From: Rhodospirillaceae bacterium | GTDB taxonomy: Bacteria; Pseudomonadota; Alphaproteobacteria; Rhodospirillales; UBA2165 | Direction: 5' to 3' | Assembly: GCA_018649725.1 (NCBI GenBank) | Contig: JABIHH010000063.1 | Coordinates: forward strand, 186,001-250,000 | Length of the DNA stretch: 64,000 nt | In this document: positions 62,137 through 64,000 of the stretch, piece after piece | How the letters are laid out: every line of letters starts with the position of its first letter | How positions within the stretch are numbered: the stretch's first letter is position 1 | Translations under genes and position numbers: made by a program | The notes under the pieces: generated by a model | The model's database searches: none | What the model saw: the letters and a program-made list of their open reading frames with translations, nothing else | What the model was told of the DNA's origin: nothing

Positions 62137-62958
62137 CTATCCGGCCTTCTGATCCACATATTGGGCATGAAGTTGGAGAATGGCAGCCGCCGTCTCTTCG
62201 ATGCTGCGCCGGGTCACGTCTAGAATTTCCCATTTTTGCTGCGCATAAAGCCGCTTGGCATAATTGACCTCTTCGGCAACCTGATCGGGATCGGCATAAG
62301 TTGTCTCTTCGCTTTCAGCCAACATGCGTAATCGGGAACGGCGGATCTGGACCAGAGTGCGGGTGTCTTTTATCAAGCCGACGACCAGTGGCTTTTGCAA
62401 CTCGAAAACCTCTTCCGGTAATTCATGGCCAAGCACAATCGGTATATTCGCGGCCTTAATGCCGCGATTGGCCAAATAGATACAGGTCGGCGTTTTCGAC
62501 GTCCGGGAGACACCGAGGATAACCACATCCGCCGCCTCCAAATTCCACGTTGCCTGCCCATCGTCGTGGGTCATGGCATAGTCCATCGCCGAGATACGAT
62601 TAAAATAGTCGTCATCCAAAGTGTGTTGGCGGCCAGGCTGGGCATGGCCCTCTTCGTTTAGATAATTTCCAAAGGCCGACATGATTGGTTGCAGCACCGA
62701 AACACAGGGAACTTTCAAGCGCCGACAGGCGGTCTGTAGCTGGGCAATGATTTCGGTATTCACCAAGGTGTAGAGCACGAAGCCGGGACGTTCCTCAATA
62801 TCTGCGATGACATCTTCGATCTGACGCTGCGAGCGAACCAAATTCCAGATGTGTTCCACCGGCTGGGTGTGTTCAAATTGAACAAGACAAGCCCGGGCTA
62901 CAGATTCCACTGTTTCACCCGTTGCATCGGATATTAAATAGAGATGGAACTCAGGCAT
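62137..62958 (-). CDS. ppsR: pyruvate,water/phosphate dikinase regulatory protein (DUF299 kinase/pyrophosphorylase)
   Basis: FHLYLISDATGETVESVARACLVQFE; VVILGVSRTSKTPTCIYLANRGIKAANIPIV. Confidence 0.95.
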   Translation of the reverse strand: MPEFHLYLISDATGETVESVARACLVQFEHTQPVEHIWNLVRSQRQIEDVIADIEERPGFVLYTLVNTEIIAQLQTACRRLKVPCVSVLQPIMSAFGNYLNEEGHAQPGRQHTLDDDYFNRISAMDYAMTHDDGQATWNLEAADVVILGVSRTSKTPTCIYLANRGIKAANIPIVLGHELPEEVFELQKPLVVGLIKDTRTLVQIRRSRLRMLAESEETTYADPDQVAEEVNYAKRLYAQQKWEILDVTRRSIEETAAAILQLHAQYVDQKAG

Positions 62959-63467
62959 GTGTTTTTAATTTTCCCCTCAACCCCCATTTTGTGGGACTTT
63001 TTAAGCTCAATCCAGGTATAACTTCGGCGTATCAAAATAGGATAAATACTGGATAAGTCGGCACTAATTCAATTCTATAAAATTTCATTCAAAACCAAAC
63101 ACGTATCATCAATCAGTTTTACTAAACGTATAACCCTAACCTAATCGGGTTAATCAAAATGACAACCAAAATTGAACCCGCTTTATCCCCAATTTTAACA
63201 CCGGAGATTATTTTTAATCTCCCAATCTAGGCCAAGAGTTGCGCGCTTTAGAACATTTATCCCACACTTATTCAATTTTGATCCCAACTTCTCTGCAGAA
63301 AAAAATTCCCGGCGTTTTTTCTGGATAAGTTGAGGATAAGAAATAATCCCCTGCTTTCACACTACAACTACAACAACAACCTTTTTACTATATATATATA
63401 ATATAGTAGTACCTCTCGTGGATAACTTCACGAGATCATAATCTTACTAGAGAGAAAACCAGTTCAT
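62959..63467. other. oriC: probable chromosomal replication origin (oriC)
   Basis: ~0.5 kb AT-rich intergenic region between divergent ppsR and hemE. DnaA-box-like 9-mers: TTATCCCCA (63183-63191 +), TTATCCAGA (63320-63328 -), TTATCCTCA (63331-63339 -), TTATCCACG (63417-63425 -). AT-rich tatatatatataatata at ~63388-63406. Confidence 0.85.
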
Positions 63468-64000
63468 ATGACGACCAAGTCTTCAGAAAATATCACTGGC
63501 CAAAAAAAAATGCTGCAGGTTCTCAGGGGCGAAAAATCTGAGACCCCTCCTTTATGGCTCATGCGACAGGCCGGCAGACACTTGAAAGAGTATCTCAAAA
63601 TCAGATCAAAGGCGAAAAATTTCTTAGATTTTTGCTACACACCTGATCTCTCTGTCGAAGCCACCCTACAGCCCATTAGACGATATGGTTTCGATGCTGC
63701 GATTTTATTTTCAGATATCTTGGTTATTCCAGACGCTCTTGGTCAGCAAGTGGACTTTGTGCCAGGTACCGGACCCGTCTTAGAAGCAATCTCGTCGGCT
63801 AAAGAACTTGAAGTTTTAAAAGCAGATCGTCTACATGATCACTTGGCACCGGTTTATGAAGCAATCGGACGTATTCGCCAAGAATTGAGCGAGCATCACT
63901 CTCAAACCACACTTATAGGCTTCGCCGGTGCACCGTGGACTGTTGCGACCTATGTTGTTGAGGGGGGAGGCAGCAAGGATTATCAAAAGACGCGCAAATG
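63468..64000 (+). CDS. hemE: uroporphyrinogen decarboxylase (partial, 3' end off window)
   Basis: ATG at 63468: MTTKSSENITGQKKMLQVLRGEKSETPPLWLMRQAGRHLKEYLKIRSKAKNFLDFCYTPDLSVEATLQPIRRYGFDAAILFSDILVIPDALG. Confidence 0.97.
   Translation, partial: MTTKSSENITGQKKMLQVLRGEKSETPPLWLMRQAGRHLKEYLKIRSKAKNFLDFCYTPDLSVEATLQPIRRYGFDAAILFSDILVIPDALGQQVDFVPGTGPVLEAISSAKELEVLKADRLHDHLAPVYEAIGRIRQELSEHHSQTTLIGFAGAPWTVATYVVEGGGSKDYQKTRK

Follow-up and report, generated by a model that had tools for sequence, protein, structure and literature searches.

The window analysed here comprises 64,000 nt (positions 186001-250000 of contig C64, 297,718 bp) from a 3.69-Mb draft genome consisting of 89 contigs. Close to its right end two genes, ppsR and hemE, point away from each other across a gap of 509 bp with 64.8% AT (C64:248959-249467). 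An initial annotation had described an AT-rich, non-coding region of ~510 bp between divergent genes, which is accurate, and had taken it for a probable replication origin, a proposal now supported by GC skew, parS sites, gene order, an excess of DnaA boxes and the conservation of the divergent pair. The features are as follows, with positions in the window unless marked C64; conservation in the genus refers to an alignment of five species.

62137-62958, minus strand: ppsR (Kinase-PPPase, DUF299/COG1806; PF03618, E=1.9e-94), the left boundary
62959-63467, no strand: almost certain oriC, intergenic between divergent ppsR and hemE (gap analysis and order-wide comparison)
63048-63056, minus strand: weak DnaA box ACTGGATAA / TTATCCAGT, core GGATAA kept in 5/5 species of the genus
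63136-63180, no strand: block strongly kept in the genus alignment, with CCTAACCTAATC and a TTAACC half-site on the minus strand
63183-63191, plus strand: DnaA box TTATCCCCA whose position 7 is C, like that of weak ATP-DnaA (W) boxes, core kept in 5/5
63257-63266, plus strand: 10-mer TTATCCCACA, not kept in the genus
63320-63328, minus strand: DnaA box TCTGGATAA / TTATCCAGA, one mismatch, core kept in 5/5
63331-63339, minus strand: DnaA box TGAGGATAA / TTATCCTCA, one mismatch, kept in 5/5, 2 bp from the 63320 box
63344-63352, plus strand: W-box-like TAATCCCCT, its core recurring class-wide beside hemE, where its distance to the array hardly varies
63353-63361, plus strand: degenerate trio-proximal box GCTTTCACA (5/9), aligned by eye
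63362-63379, minus strand (the trio strand): triplet array, CTA CAA CTA CAA CAA CAA on the plus strand, a putative single-stranded DnaA-binding element
63382-63411, no strand: AT-rich putative DNA unwinding element (DUE), no 30-mer in the 297,718-bp contig being less stable
63417-63425, minus strand: DnaA box CGTGGATAA / TTATCCACG, one mismatch, on the hemE side, not kept in the genus
63468-64000, plus strand: hemE (uroporphyrinogen decarboxylase; PF01208, E=5.3e-117), the right boundary, continuing past the window end and complete in L015
C64:145894-147327 (L010:5894-7327), minus strand: dnaA

The gap is almost certainly the single oriC of this uncultured marine alphaproteobacterium of the Rhodospirillales type. 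The origins of Caulobacter and Rickettsia have hemE and COG1806 as boundary genes (PMC1914354), and the gap lies between the same two genes in the same arrangement as in Caulobacter crescentus Cori and Rickettsia prowazekii oriC, the comparison being one of features. Common to all are weak DnaA boxes, a C at position 7 of W-box-like sites and ~40 bp of AT-rich sequence; the high AT content and the putative unwinding region agree with an origin of the hemE type. The divergent ppsR-hemE pair is present in all 50 members of the order with readable flanks, where the gap measures 309-684 bp, and the class sample shows it in 61 members, the greater part. As a hemE-type origin it is an orthologue of those in Caulobacter and Rickettsia; its location is ordinary for Alphaproteobacteria and adds one more origin of this type.

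The cumulative GC skew of C64 falls almost steadily to a minimum at 256272, ~7 kb to the right of the gap; beyond it the rise is weak. The contig extends only 48 kb past the gap, which leaves a short right arm to support this change, and the skew was therefore also sampled in two better assembled relatives. In G015, of the same family, 40 stretches were taken, one of them all N: the skew is negative in 23/23 samples left of the gap, including one between dnaA (1.336 Mb) and the gap, and positive in every readable sample at or right of it. It passes from -0.050 at 1.36-1.38 Mb to +0.008 at 1.426-1.446 Mb, with ppsR-hemE at 1.437 Mb. In G039, a closed one-contig chromosome from the same order, the sampled minimum adjoins hemE/ppsR at 3.42 Mb, ~410 kb from dnaA (position ~350), and a single sample to the right of the gap turns slightly negative again. 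The skew check proposed in the initial annotation thus finds the switch of a hemE-type origin near the gap in its own contig, in part, and at ppsR-hemE in the sampled chromosomes of both relatives.

Three perfect parS sites (TGTTTCACGTGAAACA) lie 10.5-12.7 kb right of the gap, at C64:259940, 262021 and 262098. In Caulobacter parS is found within ~10-13 kb of the origin, a similar distance. The genes to the right follow the classic order hemE-hemH-hemJ-rho-...-mnmE-mnmG-rsmG-parA-parB, with the parS sites among mnmE-mnmG-rsmG-parA-parB (hemH, hemJ, mnmG, rsmG, parA and parB were identified by ORF reading, not by family scan). Since skew, parS, gene order and the divergent ppsR-hemE pair of the relatives agree, the location of oriC may be regarded as settled as far as sequence allows.

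DnaA boxes are present in the gap above chance, as in other hemE-type origins. The four 9-mers one mismatch from TTATCCACA that had been annotated are all there, with the strands given, as are the 10-mer TTATCCCACA and the weaker box at 63048-63056. A first-order Markov model predicts 0.19 boxes with no more than one mismatch, whereas the gap has four, a count reached in 0/2000 simulations; of TTATCC/GGATAA hexamers it predicts 0.51 and the gap has seven, again reached in 0/2000 first-order simulations, and no other 509-bp stretch of the contig has so high a hexamer density. The C at position 7 of the 63183 box is characteristic of W boxes, the weak ATP-DnaA boxes (PMC8235120). The 10-mer at 63257-63266 is probably non-functional as such. 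A block of ~45 bp at 63136-63180 (GTATAAYCCTAACCTAATC..TTAA.CAA.ATGACAA) is better conserved in the genus than most of the DnaA boxes. Two other members of the genus (L056 of G004 and L064 of G007) have ppsR-hemE gaps of 19-23% GC that contain no TTATCC hexamer and keep both the triplet array and TAATCCYC; in these the DnaA boxes decay faster than the array.

Unlike the Caulobacter and Rickettsia origins, the gap is without a CtrA site, an IHF consensus or the Caulobacter G-box. By the consensus sequences of PMC1914354 neither CtrA (TTAA-N7-TTAA) nor IHF sites are found in it, although degenerate forms could be present; also absent from the gap are TTAACCAT, GANTC and the G-box TGATCCACA. The initial annotation had called the arrangement of boxes divergent. 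This is right, but the divergence that matters lies in the missing CtrA consensus sites and in a triplet array and not in mismatches within the boxes.

The most conserved part of the gap lies beside hemE and consists of two minus-strand boxes, TAATCCCC, a spacer, an array of CNA triplets and an AT tract. The series of box, W-box, array and AT tract spans 63331-63411; its best conserved member, the triplet array, is missing from the initial annotation. At 8/9 positions TAATCCCC agrees with KMRTCCCSM, the pattern of weak ATP-DnaA (W) boxes in Caulobacter (cited in PMC8235120). Where the window has the degenerate box 63353-63361, other Alphaproteobacteria often carry TTATCCACA, as judged by eye. 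On the minus strand the array reads 5'-TTG TTG TTG TAG TTG TAG-3', and the instability of the AT tract next to it was computed from nearest-neighbour energies. Scored out of 7 in the last 180 bp before hemE, with the C and A of each triplet fixed (C-N-A), the array reaches 7/7 on the hemE side in 42 of 50 members of the order, and in 0/50 both in the remainder of their gaps and on the opposite strand. In the wider class 19/61 reach 7/7 and 46/61 at least 6/7, chance alone giving roughly 4-47% for the 6/7 cases. The 6-bp core of the W-box and the array are 14-15 nt apart in 29 of 36 members of the order. A gene-blind scan for TAATCCYC-N8-16-CAACAACAACWAC across 84,980 species returned 39 stretches. 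In 24 the pattern precedes hemE by 85-131 bp, on the strand of hemE and always with a spacer of 13-16; among the 15 without a hemE match, 13 stretches bear names of unrelated groups, one is an alphaproteobacterial contig end of 375 bp and one is from a bacterium.

The array is quite probably the element through which DnaA engages single-stranded DNA in the unwinding region, whether akin to the DnaA-trios of Bacillus subtilis or to the TTGT motifs of Escherichia coli. Its order of box, short GC-containing spacer, 3-nt repeats and AT tract is that of the B. subtilis basal unwinding system (BUS; boxes plus DnaA-trios, 3'-GAT-5'), and its repeats are on the trio-bearing strand, two of the six triplets being TAG. 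Unlike in B. subtilis, the other four are TTG, so that fewer than three consecutive 3'-NAN-5' occur, the proximal boxes are more degenerate and DnaA carries Tyr at the position of Asn187. Tandem trinucleotides also form a single-stranded DNA binding module in the eTrio of Thermotoga maritima, (TAG)3 (PMC10316083). The window likewise has three or more in tandem, mostly TTG and with Tyr in DnaA, unlike the pure TAG and the Asn of T. maritima.

The middle base of the triplets has changed within the class. Many other Alphaproteobacteria keep CTA triplets, which are TAG on the trio strand, and some (e.g. L107) show exactly box-GGGTA-CTACTACTAC, while the family of the window has mostly CAA, that is TTG. 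Arrays of CAA type also occur in Sneathiella, a cultured relative (L270/L283). Counts of the middle base of CNA give 85 A and 15 T for the family; elsewhere in the order they give 31 A, 46 T and 10 C, and for the class sample 22 A, 37 T and 20 C. For A versus T the family differs from the rest of the order with Fisher p 5e-10, kinship ignored. The change to CAA loses the middle adenine of the trio and creates an E. coli-like TTGT. In place, strand and 3-nt period the array corresponds to the canonical TAG trios of other Alphaproteobacteria and may be described as a TTG-type variant of the DnaA-trio with a middle base that is mostly T; of the two kinships the one with trios is somewhat favoured. 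Taken as a whole, the locus is probably best explained as a hemE-type origin with this variant as its unwinding element. To the extent searched, such a trio/ssDUE variant is undescribed, but it may have been described earlier, e.g. in the supplementary tables of PMC8287927.

The formal BUS rule asks for a box with at most two mismatches and, no more than 16 bp from it, three or more 3'-NAN-5' trios in succession (PMC8287927). It fails at the conserved array, where NAN triplets occur singly and the nearest plus-strand box has three mismatches. The rule does match at 63183 on the plus strand (TTATTTTTAATC), in a stretch that is not conserved in the genus, and shuffled gaps of the genus match in 37%. 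Over all groups 13-37% of shuffled gaps match, depending on the group, so the rule is weakly informative and was rejected; its match falls where the gap is not conserved and is close to chance expectation. A trio reading of the array leftward from box 63417 was also rejected, this box being too far away and not conserved.

From the observed location, skew, synteny, parS sites, conservation, spacing and helix instability we infer a DnaA occupancy, a choice of strand and an order of steps as follows. DnaA would first bind the weak boxes at 63048, 63183 and 63320/63331 and, with ATP, extend through the W-box at 63344 and the degenerate box at 63353 into the duplex beside hemE. It would then bind the array (63362-63379) by its minus strand in single-stranded form, and while DnaA holds this TTG strand the adjoining AT tract, 63382-63411, would open and the helicase be loaded.

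Asn187 of B. subtilis DnaA contacts the middle adenine of the trio, and T as the middle base impairs initiation there (PMC10721633); TTG trios should therefore work poorly unless DnaA differs. The residue aligned with Asn187 is Tyr218 in DnaA of the window organism, and none of the 61 alphaproteobacterial DnaA proteins examined has Asn: there are 57 Tyr, three Phe and one His, whereas by alignment B. subtilis and T. maritima, both users of TAG, have Asn. The base-capture site of DnaA is thus aromatic or His across the class (61/61). Asn187 has given way to other residues throughout the class, even in members that keep TAG trios, so the fit between DnaA and array is permissive and not one-to-one. 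The equivalent of Ile190, a residue for single-stranded DNA binding in B. subtilis (PMC8287927), is Val221, and Val occurs here in 21/21 members of the family compared with 5/30 in the rest of the order, where Ile prevails (25/30). The association of Val with TTG is probably one evolutionary event, shared by the whole clade. Tentatively, a lineage-wide recoding of the DnaA-trio from TAG to TTG may have occurred in the family and been tolerated, or read, through Tyr in place of Asn together with Val. If this is so, alphaproteobacterial origins would be a natural link between the trios of Bacillus type and the TTGT motifs of E. coli type.

What gives the array its weight is that trios and TTGT are regarded as two distinct modes in which DnaA holds single-stranded DNA. 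The origins of the class span CTA to CAA in one frame and go with another contact residue, and this makes a single, drifting code testable. Automatic trio finders demand a middle adenine and can miss or misplace the unwinding site in these genomes.

Because the array supplies four TTGT, the main rival is an origin at the same place in which DnaA is folded back from its boxes onto overlapping TTGT of the T-rich strand, as in E. coli, where TTGT/TTATT are the motifs of ssDUE recruitment (PMC10316083, PMC8235120). The trio strand, GGTTGTTGTTGTAGTTGTAG, does have these four in 63362-63381, flanking the boxes as at E. coli oriC. They stand in a regular 3-nt array and not as scattered motifs, the boundary genes are other than those of E. 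coli, and no IHF consensus is present, the gap containing no WATCAANNNNTTR that could lie between the DUE-proximal box and the other boxes. The Val found throughout the family at the Ile190 position would suit this mechanism, being also the E. coli residue (V211), but the second ssDUE residue, R245 in E. coli, appears to be Ala in the DnaA of this organism. With the strict 3-nt phase, a distance to the W-box that hardly varies and the CTA-type arrays in other families all arguing for common descent with trios, the fold-back mechanism is unlikely, and the variant trio is preferred.

The array could also serve the transcription of hemE, or be mere low-complexity DNA near an AT tract. An origin in which array and AT tract are mainly promoter and leader of hemE, CAA-rich and unstructured, would account for TATAAT at 63397-63402, inside the AT tract and a possible -10 of hemE, and for the array preceding hemE by 48-97 bp in the family without any change of strand. 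The distance to the hemE start varies widely, however, while that to the DnaA W-box is near-fixed, and the array is coupled to the least stable 30-mer of the contig. This explanation is distinctly improbable beside that of a trio-like element held by DnaA.

A different start of replication, whether dnaA (C64:146 kb) or a cluster of DnaA boxes near C64:121 kb, can be practically dismissed: the cluster has the stronger boxes, three of them perfect TGTGGATAA, and is kept in part of the genus and family, but the skew rules out both candidates, remaining negative on either side of each in C64 and turning at hemE, not dnaA, in G015 and G039, and parS adjoins hemE and neither of them. The cluster (C64 ~121214-121409; L009:1214-1409) is outside the window, in one other stretch of the contig, which holds five boxes (C64 ~120.9-121.7 kb), some of them in contiguous 9-bp tandem. 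It sits between a dCTP-deaminase-like gene and a DeoC/LsrF-type aldolase gene, and is kept in several members of the genus and partly in other genera of the family, without a turn of the skew. It could be a DnaA titration site or a DnaA-controlled promoter.
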